Source: Planosporangium thailandense
GTDB taxonomy: Bacteria > Actinomycetota > Actinomycetes > Mycobacteriales > Micromonosporaceae
DNA: 64,000 nucleotides
Assembly (NCBI RefSeq): GCF_011947195.1
Contig: NZ_JAATVY010000025.1
Location: forward strand, 1-64,000
Reading direction: 5' to 3'
The position numbers were made by a program, and so were the translations under genes. Position 1 is the first letter of the stretch; each line of letters starts with the position of its first letter. This document shows, in pieces, positions 3,544 to 58,097 of the stretch. Under the pieces are notes generated by a model. That model made no database searches and had not been told where the DNA came from. It worked only from the letters and a program-made list of their open reading frames with translations.

Positions 3544-5310
3544 CTAGCTGATCTTGGCCGACCAGGCGATGTTCGCGTTGGCCACGTTGCTGCTGCTCGG
3601 GGTGGCCTTGAGCTCGATCAGGTCACCGGTGGCGACGGACACCGAGTGGGCGGCGTCGCCGCAGCTCTTGACCGCGCTGCCGGAGACGGTGCAGGTGATC
3701 CCGGTGTCGGCGCCGTTCTTGCGGATCATGAAGGTCCAGGTGTAGCTGCTCCCCGGCGCCGCGGTGAGGGCCACGTTCAGGCCCGAGAGGGTACCCGCGA
3801 CCGCGGCCGGCTGCTGCGCGGCCGACTCTGATGTGGACGCGCCCAGGTACATGTAGTACGGGCTGGTCGACGTGGGGTTCAGCACGGCCATCGACGAACC
3901 CTGCAGCATGGTCGCGCCGGTCGCGCCGGTCGCGCCTGCCGGACCGGCCGGACCCGCCGGACCGGCCGGACCCGCGGCGCCGGTGTCGCCCTTGGGGCCC
4001 TGCGGACCGGTGGCGCCGTCCTTGCCGTGCAGGGACGCGATCCACTCCTCGGGGGTACCCGAGAAGAGCCCACTGTCGACAGCCAGCTGGTACGCGTCCT
4101 GGCCGTCGGTACCGTGGCCGACCAGCGACTGCAGCCAGTCCTGAACCGAACCGATCGACGGGTCGTTGGCGAGGGCGATGTCGTAGGCGCTCGCGCCGGC
4201 GATGCCCTGCAGGCCCTGCGGACCCTGGGGTCCGGTGTCGCCCTTGTCGCCCTTGTCGCCCTTTTCGCCCTGAGGGCCCTGGGGGCCTACGGCGCCGTCC
4301 TTGCCGTCAGCGCCGGGGATGCCGGGCACGCCCTGGGGGCCCTGGGGCCCGGTGTCGCCCTTGTCGCCCTTGTCGCCCTTCTCGCCCTGCGGGCCCTGGG
4401 GTCCGGTGTCGCCCTTGTCGCCCTGGGCGCCGGTGTCGCCCTTGTCGCCCTGCGGGCCCTGGGCGCCCGTGTCGCCCTTGTCGCCCTGGGCGCCGGTGTC
4501 GCCCTTGTCGCCCTGCGGGCCCTGGGCGCCCGTGTCGCCCTTCTCGCCCTGCGGACCGACCGCGCCGTCCTTGCCGTCAGCGCCGGGGATGCCGGGAACG
4601 CCCTGCGGGCCCTGGGCGCCGGTGTCGCCCTTCTCGCCCTGCGGGCCCTGGGGCCCGGTGTCGCCCTTTTCGCCCTGCGGGCCCTGGGCGCCGGTGTCGC
4701 CCTTTTCGCCCTGCGGGCCCTGGGGCCCGGTGTCGCCCTTTTCGCCCTGGGGACCCTGGGGGCCTACGGCGCCGTCCTTGCCGTCAGCGCCGGGGATGCC
4801 GGGAACGCCCTGCGGGCCCTGGGCGCCGGTGTCACCCTTGTCGCCCTTCGCGCCCTGTGGGCCCGTCGGACCCTGCGGACCAGCCGGGCCGGTCGCGCCG
4901 GTCGCGCCCTTCGGACCAGCCGGGCCGGTCGCGCCGGTGGTGCCCTTCGGTCCAACCGGGCCGGTCGCGCCGGTGGTGCCCTTCGGACCAGCCGGCCCGG
5001 TCGCGCCGGTGGCGCCCTTCGGACCAGCCGGCCCGGTCGCGCCGGTGGCGCCCTTGGGGCCAGCCGGGCCGGTCGCACCTCGCGGACCCGTGTTGTTCCA
5101 GTTGATCGTCTGCTCGCCGCTCCTGCATCGGGTGCCGCGCTGGTAGTCGATGACGCGCAGGGCGCCGGTGCTGGTGTTACGGCAACCCGTGATGACACCG
5201 GTACTGCTGTTCGGCACGGACGCGTAGGCCGCAGCCGACCCGACTCCGACCAGAACTGCCGCGGCCGTCGCGGAAATGGCCGCTAACTTGCGCTTCTTTG
5301 ACTGGAACAC
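3544..5310 (-). CDS. Secreted collagen-like (GXY-repeat) protein
   Basis: The protein has 588 residues and starts at a GTG with AGGAG 8 nt upstream. A Sec signal peptide (residues 1-30) is followed by a short domain with two cysteines (GCRNTST...GTRC), the N-terminal module often seen in actinobacterial collagen-like proteins. Uninterrupted Gly-X-Y triplets fill about residues 75-370. The early part is of the GPAGPKGAT type, and the later part is rich in GDKGDT and GPQGPQG charged triplets. Two AY-x-A...EW-x-x-SL-x-G modules interrupt the helix at about 372-440, a short GXY tail follows, and a beta-rich 121-residue C-terminal domain (468-588) may nucleate trimerisation. Predicted to form a triple-helical surface fibre. 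No LPXTG sorting signal is visible. Confidence 0.9.
4201..5088 (-). repeat. Tandem GXY-coding repeat region
   Basis: About 900 bases made of 9-bp multiples encode collagen triplets. A longer cassette coding for [16 protein letters not shown] occurs three times (near 4290, 4560 and 4770) with almost identical DNA, showing expansion by duplication. The tract is prone to slippage and to assembly error, so its exact length should be treated with caution. The very long open frames on the opposite strand here are by-products of this periodic composition. Confidence 0.85.
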
Positions 5311-24694: not shown

Positions 24695-24770
24695 AGATCC
24701 GCGCAAGAAGTGAGATATTGCAGCCATACGCGCCGTTGAGGCAACAAAGAGTGACTCTCTGCGCGGATCT
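24695..24770. terminator. Long-loop inverted repeat between convergent genes
   Basis: An exact 11-bp inverted repeat (24695-24705 with 24760-24770) encloses 54 bases between pcaF and the convergent regulator gene. The right arm reaches into the regulator's stop codon. It may act as a bidirectional terminator, although the loop is longer than is typical. Confidence 0.35.
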
Positions 24771-26466
24771 ACGGCAGCCGCAACGGTGTCCGCCCTGAGA
24801 TCGCGCGCAGATCGGCTTCGATGTGGGACGCGGTCCGGCGCAGGGCAGGCAGGAGAGTGGCGCAGGTGTGCTCGACGGTGCCGCGCCCGGTGTGGGTGGA
24901 GAGGTTCACCGCAGCCACCACCCGGCCGCTGACGTCGCGCACCGGTACGGCGATCGAGCGCAGCCCCTCGTCCAGCTCCTCCTCGACCAGCGCGTACCCG
25001 CGCTCGGCCGTCTCCCGCAGGATCCGCGCCAGCGCCTCCGGGTCGGTGACGGTGCGTCGCGTCAACGGCCGCAGGTCGGCGCCGCGCAGCCGGGCCGCGC
25101 GTTCCCGCTCGTCCAGCCCGGCCAGGAGCACCCGCCCCATCGACGTCGCGTAGGCGGGGAAGCGGGTGCCGGTGGTGATGTCGACGCTCATGATCCGGTA
25201 GGTGGGGACCCGGGCCACGTAGCGGATGTCGTCGCCGTCCAGGACGGTCGCCGACGCGGACTCGTGGATCTCCGCTACCAGGAGCTCCAGGTGGGGTTGG
25301 ACGATCTGGGCGAAGCTGAGGCCCGACAGGTGGGCGTAGCCGAGTTCGAGGACCCGGGGCAGCAGCCGGAACAGCCGCCCGTCGGACTCCACGTAGCCGA
25401 GCTGCTGGAGGCTGAGCAGGGATCGCCGCGCGGTGGCGCGCGGAAGTCCGGTGGTGGCTGCCACCTCGGACAGGGTGCGCCCGCCCGCGGCCAGGCCGAG
25501 CGAGGTCAGCGTGGCCAGCCCCCGCGCCAGCGACTGCAGGAAGTCCGCTCCCAGCTCCTGCTTCGCGATCAGTGAGGTATCGGTGGCGGCAGCGGGGTGG
25601 GGCGGGGCGCCCCGGTGTCGGACGGCGTCGGCCAGGGCCCGCTCCATGGCGGCGGCCTCCTCGCGCAGCCTGGGCAGCACGGCGGCGGCGAGTGACGCCA
25701 CGGTGTGCCGGCTGGTGTGGCTGACCACGCTGACCGCGCACACCGTTCGCCCCGATGGGTCCGTCACCGGGACCGCCACGGCGATCAGGCCCGGCTCGAC
25801 GAGCTGGTCGTCGGCGGCCCAGCCGCGCTCGGCGGCTTCGGCGGTGCGTCGGGCGAAGTCCGACTCGACGAGGTACGGGTCGCTGTCGGCCGGGCGGGCG
25901 GGGACCGCGGGGAAGGTGGCGTCGCGGGGGTCGGCGGCCCGGCGCCGCCGCCAGGCCTCCCACTGCTGGCTGGTCCATCCGCGGGCGAACAGCGCACCCG
26001 GCGCGCAACGCTCCGCGGGTAGCAGGTCGCCGATGCGGAAAGCCAGTGACATGGTCCGCCGGCGGGAGATCCTCGTGACGAAACGGACGCCGCCCCCGTC
26101 GGGTACCGCGATCGAGACCGATTCGTCGAACTCGCCGGCGAGCCGCTCGGCACGCGGTCCGAGGGCGTCGGGGATACCGCAGCCGGCCAGGTACGCGTTA
26201 CCCAGTTCCAGCAGTCGGGGCGTGAGCTCCACCTCGCGGCCCGTCGCCCGGAGGTAGCCCAGCCGGACGAGCGTGCCGACGACCCGGTCGACCGTGGCCC
26301 GCGCGAGGCCGGTCAGGTGTACCAGGTCGCTGGGGCGAAGCCGGTGTTCGCCGGGGGCGGACATGGCCCGCAGCACGGCCAGGCCGCGTTCGAGCGGCCC
26401 GACCACCGGCTCGTCGGGGGAGCCGGCCGGAGTCTCGGCCGGGACGCTCGCGTCGATGCCGGTCAT
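24769..26466 (-). CDS. pcaR: Tandem (double) IclR-family regulator, PcaR-like
   Basis: This 565-residue protein is about twice the usual IclR length (about 260). It contains two complete IclR units in one chain: HTH at about 25-85 (LRPSDLVHLTGLARATVDR) with effector domain to about 275, then HTH at about 310-370 (RTLSEVAATTGLPRATARR) with effector domain to the end. The second unit has canonical signatures (YATSMGRVLLAGL, LRSIAVPVRD). The start is the ATG at 26466, with GGGAG about 9 nt upstream. It is divergent from pcaH across a region with a six-copy repeat array, so it is the likely regulator of pcaHGBL-pobA and of itself. A covalent dimer of HTHs would suit the repeated operator. Confidence 0.88.
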   Translation of the reverse strand: MTGIDASVPAETPAGSPDEPVVGPLERGLAVLRAMSAPGEHRLRPSDLVHLTGLARATVDRVVGTLVRLGYLRATGREVELTPRLLELGNAYLAGCGIPDALGPRAERLAGEFDESVSIAVPDGGGVRFVTRISRRRTMSLAFRIGDLLPAERCAPGALFARGWTSQQWEAWRRRRAADPRDATFPAVPARPADSDPYLVESDFARRTAEAAERGWAADDQLVEPGLIAVAVPVTDPSGRTVCAVSVVSHTSRHTVASLAAAVLPRLREEAAAMERALADAVRHRGAPPHPAAATDTSLIAKQELGADFLQSLARGLATLTSLGLAAGGRTLSEVAATTGLPRATARRSLLSLQQLGYVESDGRLFRLLPRVLELGYAHLSGLSFAQIVQPHLELLVAEIHESASATVLDGDDIRYVARVPTYRIMSVDITTGTRFPAYATSMGRVLLAGLDERERAARLRGADLRPLTRRTVTDPEALARILRETAERGYALVEEELDEGLRSIAVPVRDVSGRVVAAVNLSTHTGRGTVEHTCATLLPALRRTASHIEADLRAISGRTPLRLP

Positions 26467-26593
26467 TGGAGTGCTCCCTGGTCTGGCTGCGCACCGTGGA
26501 ACCGCGGGTGACCCCGGGGGAAATTCCGCCGGTGGGATTGTTGACACCCGCCCGGTGGCGGGCGGAAACTCGTGACGCAAATTATGAACTAAA

Positions 26594-26711
26594 GTTCACT
26601 TTGCGAACAAGACTGAAAATCGCGAACAAGACTGAAAATCGCGAACGAGACCTGCAAGCCCGCGAACGAGACCTGCAAGCCCGCGAACAAGACCTGCAAC
26701 CCGCGAACAAG
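26594..26711. repeat. Six-copy operator-like array in the pcaR-pcaH region
   Basis: The 9-mer GCGAAC(A/G)AG begins at 26603, 26622, 26641, 26662, 26683 and 26703, giving spacings of 19, 19, 21, 21 and 20 bp, close to two helical turns. The bases between copies are conserved pairwise (ACTGAAAAT twice, ACCTGCAAG twice). At the left end, GTTCAC-TTT-GCGAAC makes the first copy one half of a near-palindrome. This recalls PcaU/PobR (IclR-family) operators, which combine a palindrome with an extra direct repeat, but with more copies. It lies between the divergent starts of the double IclR gene and pcaH, so it is the likely binding platform for that regulator. Confidence 0.75.
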
Positions 26712-26819
26712 GGCGATGTCGGCCAGGGCCCCCCGGCACCCGAACTGCTGACGGGCACCGTGCGCCGCACCGGCTCCGTACCCCCCACACCGGCCGCCTG
26801 AGCCTGCATGGAGACCCAC

Positions 26820-27614
26820 ATGACCACATCTATCGAGCGGGTGTCCGCGGCGCCGCTCGGCCAGGCCGACATCGACCGCGAGATGGCCGAGCTGCGGCGC
26901 ACCGCCGACGCGGCAGGCAACGGAGCGCCCGCCCCGCTCCACCCGTCCCGTGACTACCCTCCGTACCGCAGCAGCGTGCTGCGCCACCCCAAACAGCCCC
27001 TCGTCGTGGTCCGCGACCCCGAGGCGGTTGAGCTGACCGGGCCGGTCTTCGGCGTCACCGACGTCACCGACCTCGACTCCGACCTCACCCGGCAGCACGT
27101 CGGCGAGCCGCTCGGCGAGCGGATCACCGTGACCGGCCGGGTCCTCGACCGCCAGGGCCGGCCGGTGCGCGGCCAGCTCGTCGAGATCTGGCAGGCGAAC
27201 GCGTCCGGCCGGTACGCCCACCAGCGCGACCAGCACCCGGCACCCCTCGACCCCAACTTCACCGGTGTCGGCCGCTGCCTGACCGACGACGAGGGTCGTT
27301 ACCACTTCACGACGATCAAGCCGGGCCCGTACCCGTGGCGCAACCACCTCAACGCCTGGCGGCCGGCCCACATCCACTTCTCGCTGTTCGGCACGGCGTT
27401 CACCCAGCGGCTCGTCACCCAGATGTACTTCCCCGGCGATCCGCTGTTCTCGTTCGACCCGATCTACCAGTCCATCACCGACGAGCGGGCGCGGGAGCGC
27501 CTCATCGCCACCTACGACCACGACCAGTCCAGCCCCGAGTGGTCGCTGGGCTACCGCTGGGACATCGTCCTCGACGGCCCGGCGGCGACCTGGATCGAGG
27601 AGGGCCGGTCATGA
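26820..27614 (+). CDS. pcaH: Protocatechuate 3,4-dioxygenase beta subunit
   Basis: The 264-residue intradiol dioxygenase subunit that holds the non-heme Fe(III) has the family signature LVEIWQANASGRY, the ligand tyrosines (GRY, and YPWRN), and two His in HIHFSLFG. The ATG at 26820 is preferred to the one four codons earlier because GGAG lies 6 nt upstream of it. It overlaps pcaG by 4 bases. The enzyme opens the ring of protocatechuate to 3-carboxy-cis,cis-muconate. Confidence 0.95.
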   Translation: MTTSIERVSAAPLGQADIDREMAELRRTADAAGNGAPAPLHPSRDYPPYRSSVLRHPKQPLVVVRDPEAVELTGPVFGVTDVTDLDSDLTRQHVGEPLGERITVTGRVLDRQGRPVRGQLVEIWQANASGRYAHQRDQHPAPLDPNFTGVGRCLTDDEGRYHFTTIKPGPYPWRNHLNAWRPAHIHFSLFGTAFTQRLVTQMYFPGDPLFSFDPIYQSITDERARERLIATYDHDQSSPEWSLGYRWDIVLDGPAATWIEEGRS

Positions 27615-29531: not shown

Positions 29532-30715
29532 CCGCCCTTCTGCACCACCGCCTCGACGGCCCGGAAGGCGCGCCGCCGCTGATCCTCGGCCCGTCGCTGG
29601 GGACCTCCCTGGCGGTGTGGGAGCCGTCGCTGCCCGAGCTCGCCCGTACGCACCGGGTGCTGCGCTTCGACCTGCCCGGCCACGGCGGCTCGGCAGCCAC
29701 CGGCACCACGACCGTCGAAGGCCTGGCCCGGCTCGTCCTCGACCTCACCGACCACTATGGATGGCAGCGGTTCGGGTACGCGGGCATCTCGCTGGGCGGC
29801 GCGATCGGCGCGTACCTCGCGCTGCACCACCCCGACCGGGTCGCGAACCTCGCGATGGTCTGTTCGTCCGCCCGATTCGGCGAACCGCAGGGGTGGCACG
29901 ACCGGGCCGCCCTGGTGCGCGCCGAGGGCACGAAGGCCGTGGCCGACGCGACCCCCGGCCGCTGGTTCACCGCCTCCTTCGCCGAGTCCCCACGCGCGAA
30001 AGCGCTCGTCGGCGACCTTCTCGCCGCCGACGCTGCCGGGTACGCCGCCTGCTGCGACGCGCTCGCCGCCTACGACCTGCGCGCTGAGCTGCCCCGGATC
30101 GCCGTGCCCACCCTGGTGGTCGCCGGCCGCGAGGACCCGGCCACCCCACCCGCCCACGCCCGTGAGCTCGCCGACGGCATTCCCGGCGCGAGCCTGCTCG
30201 AGGTGGCCGGCGCCGCGCACCTGGCCGGGGTGGAGAAGCCCGAGGTCGTGACCGCGGCGCTGAGCCAGCACCTCGCCGCCTCGCCCGCGCCCAGCGCGGA
30301 CCGGGCGCGGCACGCCGCCGGCATGGCCGTGCGCCGGGCCGTCCTCGGCGACGCCCACGTGGACCGGGCCACCGCCAACACGACCGCTTTCACCACGGAC
30401 TTCCAGGACTTCATCACCCGGTACGCGTGGGGCGAGATCTGGACCCGCCCCGGCCTGGACCGCCGCACCCGGTCCTGCATCACCATGACCGCGCTGGTCG
30501 CCCACGGCCACCTGGACGAGCTGGCCATGCACGTACGAGCCGCCCTACGCAACGGACTGACGCCGCAGGAGATCGCCGAGGTCCTGCTGCAGGTCGGCGT
30601 GTACTGCGGCGTACCGGCCGCGAACGCCGCCTTCGGCGTCGCCCAGCGCACCCTCCGCGATGAGGGAATCGAGCCGGGCTTCCCTGCCACGAAACACCCC
30701 TCCGGGAGGAACTGA
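29528..30715 (+). CDS. pcaL: Fused 3-oxoadipate enol-lactonase / 4-carboxymuconolactone decarboxylase
   Basis: The 395-residue fusion has an N-terminal alpha/beta hydrolase (PcaD part, about 1-255) with the nucleophile Ser in YAGISLGGAIG, an acid in AGREDPATP and a His in GAAHLAG. After a short linker, the C-terminal PcaC part (about 265-385) carries the carboxymuconolactone decarboxylase core (TRSCITMTALVAHGHLDEL). This fusion (PcaL) is known from Streptomyces and Rhodococcus. It performs the two steps to 3-oxoadipate. It is coupled to pcaB (ATGA) and to pobA (TGATG). Confidence 0.95.
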   Translation: MTALLHHRLDGPEGAPPLILGPSLGTSLAVWEPSLPELARTHRVLRFDLPGHGGSAATGTTTVEGLARLVLDLTDHYGWQRFGYAGISLGGAIGAYLALHHPDRVANLAMVCSSARFGEPQGWHDRAALVRAEGTKAVADATPGRWFTASFAESPRAKALVGDLLAADAAGYAACCDALAAYDLRAELPRIAVPTLVVAGREDPATPPAHARELADGIPGASLLEVAGAAHLAGVEKPEVVTAALSQHLAASPAPSADRARHAAGMAVRRAVLGDAHVDRATANTTAFTTDFQDFITRYAWGEIWTRPGLDRRTRSCITMTALVAHGHLDELAMHVRAALRNGLTPQEIAEVLLQVGVYCGVPAANAAFGVAQRTLRDEGIEPGFPATKHPSGRN

Positions 30716-31893
30716 TGCGTACCACCGTCGGCATCGTCGGCGGCGGCCCGGCAGGGCTGCTGCTCGCCCGACTGCTCCACCAGGCCGGGATCGACTGCGT
30801 GCTCCTGGAGTGCCGCGACCGCGCCTACGTCGAGCAGCGTCAGCGTGCCGGCATCCTCGAGCAGGGCACCATCGACGTGCTGCGGGCCTGCGGCGCGGGC
30901 GACCGCATGGACCGCGAGGGGCTCGTCCACGACGGCATCGAGCTCCACTTCGACGGCCGGCGCCACCGCATCGACTTCCCGGCCCTGACCGGCGGTCGCA
31001 GCGTGATGGTGTACGCCCAGACCGAGGTCGTGAAGGACCTCATCGCCCTGCAGTTGGCCGACGGCGCGCCACTGCTGTTCGAGGCCCAGGTCACCGCCGT
31101 CGAGGGGGCCGACACCGACAGCCCGGTCATCCGCTTCACCCACGAGGGCCGCGAGCAGACCCTGCGGTGCGACTATGTGGTCGGCTGCGACGGCTTCCAC
31201 GGCGTCGCCCGGCACGCCATCCCCGACGGCGCGCGGCGGACCTTCGAGCGGACCTACCCGTACTCGTGGCTGGGCATCCTCGCCGACGTGGCACCGTCCA
31301 ACGACGAGCTGATCTACGCGCACTCCGAACGCGGCTTCGCCCTGCTGAGCATGCGCTCACCCGTCGTGAGCCGGCTGTACCTGCAGGTCCCCAACGACAC
31401 CGACCCGCACGCCTGGTCCGACGAGCGGATCTGGGACGAGCTCGACGCCCGGTTCGCCCTCCGCGACGGCGGCTGGAAGCTGCAGCGCGGCCCGATCACC
31501 AGCAAGTCCGTCACCCCGATGCGCAGCTTCGTCGCCGAACCGATGCGGTACGGGCGGGTCTTCCTCGCCGGCGACGCCGCCCACATCGTGCCGCCCACCG
31601 GCGCCAAGGGGCTCAACCTGGCCGTCGCCGACGTCGTCGTGCTCGCCCGGGCCTTCGCCCACCTGCACACCGCCGGCTCCACCTCGCTGCTCGACGCCTA
31701 CTCCGACACCTGCCTGCGGCGGGTGTGGCGGGCCGAGCACTTCTCGTACTTCATGACCACCACGCTGCACCCCGACCCGGCACAGTCCCCGTTCGACACC
31801 CGTCTGCAGATCGCGCAGCTGGATCGCATCGCCACGTCCACCGCCGCCGCGACCGAGCTGGCGGAGAACTACACCGGTCTGCCGATCGGCTGA
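30715..31893 (+). CDS. pobA: 4-hydroxybenzoate 3-monooxygenase
   Basis: The 392-residue flavoprotein aromatic hydroxylase has GIVGGGPAGLLLARL (FAD), a DG motif region (VVGCDGFHG), and FLAGDAAHIVPPTGAKGLN near the flavin. The length matches PobA (about 390-395). It hydroxylates 4-hydroxybenzoate to protocatechuate with NAD(P)H. It is coded as the last gene of the pcaHGBL operon with a 1-base stop-start overlap, linking the cre-like module (which ends at 4-hydroxybenzoate) to ring cleavage. Confidence 0.95.
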   Translation: MRTTVGIVGGGPAGLLLARLLHQAGIDCVLLECRDRAYVEQRQRAGILEQGTIDVLRACGAGDRMDREGLVHDGIELHFDGRRHRIDFPALTGGRSVMVYAQTEVVKDLIALQLADGAPLLFEAQVTAVEGADTDSPVIRFTHEGREQTLRCDYVVGCDGFHGVARHAIPDGARRTFERTYPYSWLGILADVAPSNDELIYAHSERGFALLSMRSPVVSRLYLQVPNDTDPHAWSDERIWDELDARFALRDGGWKLQRGPITSKSVTPMRSFVAEPMRYGRVFLAGDAAHIVPPTGAKGLNLAVADVVVLARAFAHLHTAGSTSLLDAYSDTCLRRVWRAEHFSYFMTTTLHPDPAQSPFDTRLQIAQLDRIATSTAAATELAENYTGLPIG

Positions 31894-51156: not shown

Positions 51157-52526
<1,370 letters not shown>

Positions 52527-56448: not shown

Positions 56449-57230
56449 GACACCGCCCGTGCCCCGTCGAAGCCGATGTCCCGGGAAACGGCGTCGGCGG
56501 TCGCCACCAGGTGCGGGACGAACTCCTCGCGGAGGCTCTCCAGGGAGACCCGGGCGGCGTTCGCCGACACGTTGATCGCTGCGATGACCGCGCCGGAGGC
56601 GTCGCGGACCGGAGCCGCCGCCGACCGTACCCCCTCCTCGCGCTCACCGTCGACCACGGCGTACCCCTGCTGGCGTACCCGCTCGAGCTCGGCGCGCAGG
56701 GCCTCGGCGTCGTCGATCGTGCGCGGGGTGAGCTTGCGCAGCTCGACGCCGTCGAGGTACGCCTGGAGCCGTTCCGGCGGGAGCGCGGCGAGGAGGACGC
56801 GGCCCATCGACGTCGGGTACGCGGGCAGTCGCGATCCCACGCTCAGGGTGATCGACATGCTGCGTGCGGCGGGCACGCGTGCGAGGTAGACGATCTCGCT
56901 CGCGTCGAGGGTCGCCATGGAGCAGGACTCCAGCAGCTTGTCGGCGAGCGCCCGCATGTGCGGCTGCGCTCGCTCGGCCACCGGCTGCGAGTTCAGGTAC
57001 CCGTAACCGAGCCGCAGCACGTGCGGGGTGAGCCGGAACTCGCGCCCGGTTGACTCGGCGAAGCCGAGACGCGTGAACGTCAGCAGGATCCGGCGCGCGG
57101 TGGCCCGGGTGAGCCCCGTGAGCTGGGCAGCCTCACTGACGGTCACCGTGGGATGTTCAGCCGAGAATGCCTGGAGAAGCCGGAAGGCCTTTTCTACCGA
57201 ATCGATGACGTCCGGATCCTCTCGCGACAT
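56445..57230 (-). CDS. IclR-family transcriptional regulator
   Basis: The 261-residue protein has an N-terminal winged helix (VTVSEAAQLTGLTRATARR) and an IclR effector domain (YPTSMGRVLLAAL, VRSAAAPVRD). It resembles the second unit of the double IclR protein coded at 24769-26466. It is co-transcribed with the dehydrogenase gene. Direct repeats of GACGAAC in front of the DctA-like gene at 58072-58097 have the 19-bp spacing seen in the pca operator array and are candidate sites. Confidence 0.9.
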   Translation of the reverse strand: MSREDPDVIDSVEKAFRLLQAFSAEHPTVTVSEAAQLTGLTRATARRILLTFTRLGFAESTGREFRLTPHVLRLGYGYLNSQPVAERAQPHMRALADKLLESCSMATLDASEIVYLARVPAARSMSITLSVGSRLPAYPTSMGRVLLAALPPERLQAYLDGVELRKLTPRTIDDAEALRAELERVRQQGYAVVDGEREEGVRSAAAPVRDASGAVIAAINVSANAARVSLESLREEFVPHLVATADAVSRDIGFDGARAVS

Positions 57231-58032: not shown

Positions 58033-58097
58033 TTGACAGCGGGCGTGCGACCCGTGCCACTATGTGCGTCTGACGAACTTGTGTACGCAGGACGAAC
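58033..58097 (+). promoter_or_regulatory. Promoter and direct repeats upstream of the DctA-like gene
   Basis: A perfect -35 TTGACA (58033-58038) is followed by CACTAT (58058-58063) at 19 bp. Downstream, GACGAAC occurs twice (58072-58078 and 58091-58097), the copies beginning 19 bp apart, and these overlap the expected transcript start. The repeats resemble the GCGAAC units of the pcaR-pcaH array and may bind the nearby IclR protein as a repressor. Confidence 0.5.

Follow-up and report, generated by a model that had tools for sequence, protein, structure and literature searches.

A putative three-box PcaR operator with a tandemly expanded outer box between pcaR and pcaH of Planosporangium thailandense

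Between the divergent genes pcaR and pcaH of Planosporangium thailandense, the motif GCGAACRAG stands six times in a row, which raises the question of whether the whole series is an operator on which the neighboring regulator assembles, or whether only part of it is a switch site and the remainder has another origin. As the original prediction had it, the motif starts, in exact form each time and on the plus strand, at 26603, 26622, 26641, 26662, 26683, and 26703 (spacing 19, 19, 21, 21, and 20 bp), and it recurs in exact form once more, at 51744, in the window, that is, in the whole 64,000-nucleotide stretch analyzed here. The two neighbors named by that prediction were recovered by family searches, with TIGR02431 (PcaR/PcaU/PobR) matching the minus-strand product of 24769–26466 at 449 bits in two stretches and TIGR02422 matching the plus-strand gene that opens at 26808. 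The genes that frame the question are as follows.

24769 to 26466, minus strand: pcaR, encoding a double-IclR PcaR of 565 aa with two winged HTH and two effector domains (Pfam, TIGR02431)
26808 to 27614, plus strand: pcaH, first gene of an operon that ends in pobA (TIGR02422, 373 bits)
30715 to 31893: pobA, matching the NCBIfam 4-hydroxybenzoate 3-monooxygenase family

Pfam HTH_IclR and IclR_C each match PcaR in two stretches, and an AlphaFold (AF2) model built from three sequences displays two IclR units at moderate confidence (mean pLDDT 67.6, pTM 0.54). The PcaR proteins of the two sister species are 81% and 78% identical to that of the window. Across 30 double-PcaR loci (L001–L003, L031, L032, and L036–L060), both HTH recognition helices are kept, and are unlike each other, in 20 of the 20 readable rows (TGL[AP]R[AS]T[VI]DR in the N half, L[PAT]RA[TS][AV]RR in the C half), a count that includes the window's own locus (L001) and leaves out the ten loci in the wrong frame (L037, L043, L044, L047, L049, L050, L053, L054, L058, and L059). 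On the operon side, the start of pcaH lies more likely at 26820, after a GGAG, than at 26808, and the intervening pcaG, pcaB, and pcaL bear names given by reading the open reading frames, without family search. The gene order of the pcaH operon is the same in one of the sister species (G002), at 85–89% identity.

The first of the six copies turned out to belong to a conserved three-box site, GAAC-TAAA-GTTC-ACTTT-GCGAAC (26586–26608, or GAAC-N4-GTTC-N5-GCGAAC), of which it is the third box, and this agrees with the earlier reading of the region as an IclR-type (PcaR) operator. The near-palindrome GTTCAC-TTT-GCGAAC reported at the leftmost copy is likewise present, at 26594–26608. Absent from that description was box 1, a GAAC that starts 19 bp before the GAAC of copy 1 and forms TGAAC-TAAA-GTTCA with box 2. 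The boxes alternate in direction and offer both pair types, and the site stands between the divergent pcaR, the gene of an IclR-family regulator, and pcaH, which opens a probable target operon. The elements of the site and of its putative promoter are listed below.

26586 to 26589, plus strand: operator box 1, GAAC, with a T before it; the exact core is also found in both sister species (G001, G002), L031, L032, and others
26594 to 26597, minus strand: operator box 2, the inverted box, GTTC on the plus strand, pairing with box 1 (N4) and box 3 (N5)
26603 to 26608, plus strand: operator box 3, GCGAAC, which is array copy 1, conserved in relatives and the sole array copy with an inverted partner
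26541 to 26546, plus strand: putative −35 element TTGACA of the pcaH-operon promoter, placed by sequence and conservation
26565 to 26570, plus strand: putative −10 element GAAACT, 18 nt after the −35, placed by comparing relatives' promoters by eye

The core is shared with relatives that have the same regulator, standing in exact form at 13 of the 30 double-PcaR loci (the window, the two sister species, and ten more), and it counts against the core reading that no exact core was found in the stretch read at the other 17, two of which (L049 and L055) have near matches. In one sister species (G001), the core sits between pcaR and a pobA 93% identical to the window's, and in the other (G002) its neighbors are pcaR and a gene of CoA-transferase-like appearance by eye, although tblastn with pcaI and pcaJ of the window had no match there. 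Species vary in which gene comes first after the operator, and the leader that follows the array (26712–26760) can be aligned with the surroundings of the pobA start in G001, so that pobA may once have adjoined the operator. At a larger scale, the core was detected in 121 of the 250 genomes of the window's family, some of which must be chance matches since the reversed control matches in about 7 of the 250, and in 57 of the 295 genomes of genus g78 (probably Streptomyces), at 69 places, with the reversed pattern in none of the 295; g78 places devoid of a TTGAC at promoter distance (e.g., L108, L120, L122, L128, and L135) are probably not operators. As for other places in the window, a second PcaR-like IclR protein, encoded on the minus strand at 56472–57218, shares 44% identity with the second half of PcaR, and near its gene lies a three-box-like site (58075–58097, plus strand) with two mismatches, a kind of match that also arises by chance; a similar pair of PcaR-like gene and three-box-like site is found in contig C22 of G001.

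The core is also tied to a promoter-like element. A TTGAC lies 30–55 nt before box 1 in 59 of the 78 distinct core sites compared, many of these loci having been fetched by the operator pattern and none by the promoter. In the window, the core begins 45 nt after the start of TTGAC, an arrangement of TTGAC and core shared by many relatives with the double regulator, and stands 15 nt downstream of the putative −10, between the divergent pcaR and pcaH; transcription might start near 26577, which is a guess. A generic sigma-70 scan returned no promoter in 26400–26900, so it is conservation that places the −35 and −10 elements. Since the site would lie downstream of the −10, repression would be its natural mode. 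On this basis, the conserved element at 26586–26608 appears to be a known kind of switch site, an ordinary three-box operator for an operon that degrades aromatic acids from plants, with PcaR as its presumed binder. PcaR free of inducer would most likely occupy 26586–26608 and block transcription of the pcaH–pobA operon, an aromatic compound of the pathway would release it and let the operon be transcribed, and PcaR at the core would probably also affect the divergent pcaR.

The core further hints that operator and regulator architecture may change together. Of the 12 promoter-linked cores at double-PcaR loci, where TTGAC lies 39–49 nt upstream, 11 show GTTCA in box 2 and 11 show a T in front of box 1, when two single-PcaR loci (L017 and L022) read AGAAC...GTTCG with TTGAC 37–38 nt upstream; a further locus of G001 (L070) reads GTTCG, at the same 37–38 nt. 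The 19 promoter-linked family sites found by pattern, at which the regulators are unchecked, carry a G at this box-2 position without exception. A counter-example to the link between double PcaR and GTTCA is L046, a double-PcaR core without TTGAC that reads GTTCG, and phylogeny confounds the association, although G001 has both types. These observations suggest that the core beside a double-IclR PcaR differs slightly from the one beside a single-IclR PcaR, in which case the role of the second HTH would become testable.

Turning to the other five copies, their origin can be read from the comparison with the sister species, as summarized by two features.

26603 to 26702, plus strand: net tandem expansion of 100 bp, five units of 19, 19, 21, 21, and 20 bp, delimited by comparison with the G001 leader
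26703 to 26711, plus strand: last array copy, GCGAACAAG, with the ancestral leader directly after it

Copies 2–6 are a tandem expansion of a unit of about 20 bp that starts with box 3. Tandem Repeats Finder (TRF) reports a tandem repeat at 26603–26711 (period 21, 5.4 copies, 89% matches). As the original prediction did not note, the copies are embedded in longer units: a pair of identical 19-mers, a pair of identical 21-mers, a single 20-mer, and, at the end, an incomplete unit. With 26603–26702 omitted, the window aligns better to the G001 leader (score 123, up from 89) and hardly better to that of G002 (64.5, up from 63). Downstream of the last copy, 16 of 25 positions agree with the G001 flank that follows its single box 3 (shuffle p 0.0006; gapped p 0.001), when downstream of the first copy 9 of 25 do (gapped p 0.92), which is no match. 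Because the stretch is missing from both sisters, a net expansion starting at box 3 is a more economical account than loss of the stretch twice, and what was found is what defines a minisatellite, that is, head-to-tail near-identical units inserted relative to the unexpanded G001 leader. The leader of L032 carries an unrelated GGGATC-like run, which indicates that such leaders tolerate slippage. The count of six comes from one draft genome of the species, so that the copy number could be mis-assembled, and the genus sample comprises four genomes, one per species. The window harbors another long tandem-repeat region, at 4193–5089, with periods of 9, 27, 36, 63, and 117 bp and a collagen-like appearance by eye.

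Rarity was dropped as an argument in favor of the array. A triple pattern, GCGAAC-N12-16-GCGAAC-N12-16-GCGAAC, has four overlapping matches in the 7.0-Mb genome, every one inside the array, with none on the opposite strand and none in the reversed control; however, GCGAAC triplets at similar spacing occur at least once in 93 of 394 genomes of the class, with an 18-bp period in many of those listed. An array of this kind therefore proves nothing by itself, and its place and register are what matter.

The original prediction went further than an operator, proposing that all six copies face the same side of the DNA and that six of them would allow cooperative, filament-like binding. The geometry speaks against it. 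At 10.5 bp per turn, the phases of the copies relative to copy 1 are 0, −69, −137, −137, −137, and −171 degrees, values that depend on the helical repeat chosen (10.3 and 10.7 bp were also computed); they span 171 degrees, and only copies 3–5 share a face, in phase with each other and out of phase with the core. Nor does each copy have the partner half-site that a six-copy cooperative operator would provide, since an inverted GTTC at an allowed distance accompanies copy 1 only, copies 2–6 matching at most two of its four bases at the spacings tried, which leaves these five as lone half-sites. The GCGAAC boxes themselves are intact in all six copies. Over the first five units, variable columns number 0 of 6 in the box and 6 of 13 elsewhere (p 0.063), or 8 of 15 elsewhere with gap columns (p 0.032) and 6 of 15 under another alignment (p 0.092), a post hoc comparison in which the motif had been picked as conserved and few independent changes are involved.

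Such an operator would also be expected to keep its array in relatives. The two sister species lack it, having no further box 17–23 bp after box 3, and their alignment to the window covers promoter and core only. A core with an extra box was found in 3 of the 250 genomes of the window's family, the window's own included, and a core with a further GYGAAC 17–23 bp on was found in 1 of the 295 g78 genomes, where TTGAC is missing and no operator is recognizable. Absence from every relative, which the original prediction named as evidence against itself, holds for copies 2–6 in the two sisters and fails where a single extra box is concerned. In Streptomyces varsoviensis (L031), a further GCGAAC stands at 21 bp and another at 34 bp after box 3, in a leader, between the core and the gene divergent to pcaR, that has 8 GAAC per 100 nt for 1.3 expected and in other respects does not resemble the window's array. 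In G013, a genome from a different genus of the family (L143, around position 1500, minus strand), GCTTGCGAACAC is repeated at 19 bp, a duplicate of box 3 that apparently arose independently of the window's array, at a core between permease-like and CoA-transferase-like genes (both by eye). Over the 59 of 78 core sites with TTGAC 30–55 nt upstream, an extra GCGMAC occurs within 100 nt at 12, giving 18 copies against 7.3 expected, of which the window alone gives 5, and L142 and L143 are part of this count as the result of a search for an extra box. The attractive idea of a matched double-IclR protein and repeat array does not generalize, as L031 is the only one of the 12 other exact-core double-PcaR loci with a further GCGMAC at 17–23 bp.

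Two explanations weigh these observations differently. We consider it fairly probable that PcaR represses through the core and that the array is a minisatellite born of slippage, neutral or weakly auxiliary. Replication slippage would have amplified the unit starting with box 3, adding five units (100 bp) of pcaH leader, and the added copies, as lone half-sites, would most likely have no effect or offer PcaR weak auxiliary places to dock, without any cooperative filament. Counting against neutrality are the six intact boxes, the near-19-bp spacing, and the extra boxes in L031 and L143. A second explanation, possible in our view though doubtful, makes a working multi-site operator of the array: a PcaR dimer would present four HTH domains, the core would hold three of them, the remaining HTH or further PcaR would settle on the extra boxes, and copy number would tune repression. 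The two distinct helices kept in all readable double-PcaR rows would suit it, as would extra boxes that prolong the 19-bp step from box 1 to box 3, near which the array spacing stays, copies 3–5 that are in phase, and the recurrence of an extra box in L143 (19 bp) and L031 (21 bp). Tandem IclR sites with 18–22 nt between centers are moreover described for 94 groups in the available portion of PMC8222616, but those sites are palindromic, when copies 2–6 have no inverted partners and drift in phase against the core, and the array is absent from both sisters.

Two further readings take the repeats out of the realm of DNA binding. The array lies downstream of the putative promoter and should be transcribed, so that the repeats could act in RNA, as a 5′ leader element of the pcaH mRNA that is structured or bound by a protein or small RNA; we rejected this very improbable idea since the leader fold is no more stable than those of shuffled sequences (z −0.43; 62 of 200 shuffles at least as stable), and what was amplified is a DNA operator box that relatives have kept. 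The least probable reading of all, a coding repeat within a small protein on either strand, could appeal to open frames of 111 aa (plus) and 112 aa (minus) across the array, yet the 19- and 20-bp units shift the frame, no Pfam family matches at the curated cut-off, and the stretch is missing from G001, and it was likewise rejected. The first long open frame, its start being taken as the first ATG or GTG with 100 codons, unverified, comes 199 nt after box 3 in the window, against 2 to 119 nt elsewhere among the sites compared.

From the perspective of regulatory evolution, the locus offers a natural test of what added direct half-sites do for an IclR-family regulator, the sisters sharing promoter, core, and regulator without the array. 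A bolder proposal, which we hold to be rather unlikely, is that a half-site array of variable copy number works as a rheostat: the two HTHs would read TGAAC (boxes 1 and 2) and GCGAAC (box 3), respectively, and amplification of GCGAAC alone would alter the strength or cooperativity of pca repression. If this were true, slippage could tune a catabolic switch with the core left untouched.

Bacterial minisatellites, or variable-number tandem repeats, occur in promoters and leaders. The window's array resembles them in its near-identical 19–21-bp units, its place in a noncoding leader, and its absence from sister species, and differs from them in that its unit contains the recognition box of a regulator. 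On tandem repeats or cooperative half-sites at IclR operators, our literature searches found nothing in print, and the articles listed among those retrieved with "two IclR" concern other subjects, as far as their titles and the beginnings of their abstracts tell. Among regulators of the IclR family, the operators of PcaU, PobR, and HmgR consist, according to the available portion of PMC8222616, of a palindrome with an external direct half-site, and PcaU binding needs the third box; the geometry of the window's core agrees with these three-box sites, but in the window the outer box has been multiplied to six. Titles in the reference list of PMC8222616 describe PcaU and PobR as activators, when the window's site lies downstream of the putative −10. 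In Rhodococcus opacus, an IclR-type PcaR is reported to repress pcaH, its domain number being unstated in the portion of PMC9582017 at hand. The PcaR motif of Corynebacterium glutamicum, GTTCGC-N3-GCGAAC (Brinkrolf 2006, as cited in the same portion of PMC8222616), is like boxes 2 and 3 of the window (GTTCAC-TTT-GCGAAC), from which the window's locus departs by an extra box 1, one changed base in box 2, a double-IclR regulator, and the tandem expansion. Finally, the tandem IclR sites described in that portion of PMC8222616 and the array presented here have about two helical turns between copies in common, but the former are tandem palindromes and the latter tandem half-sites.
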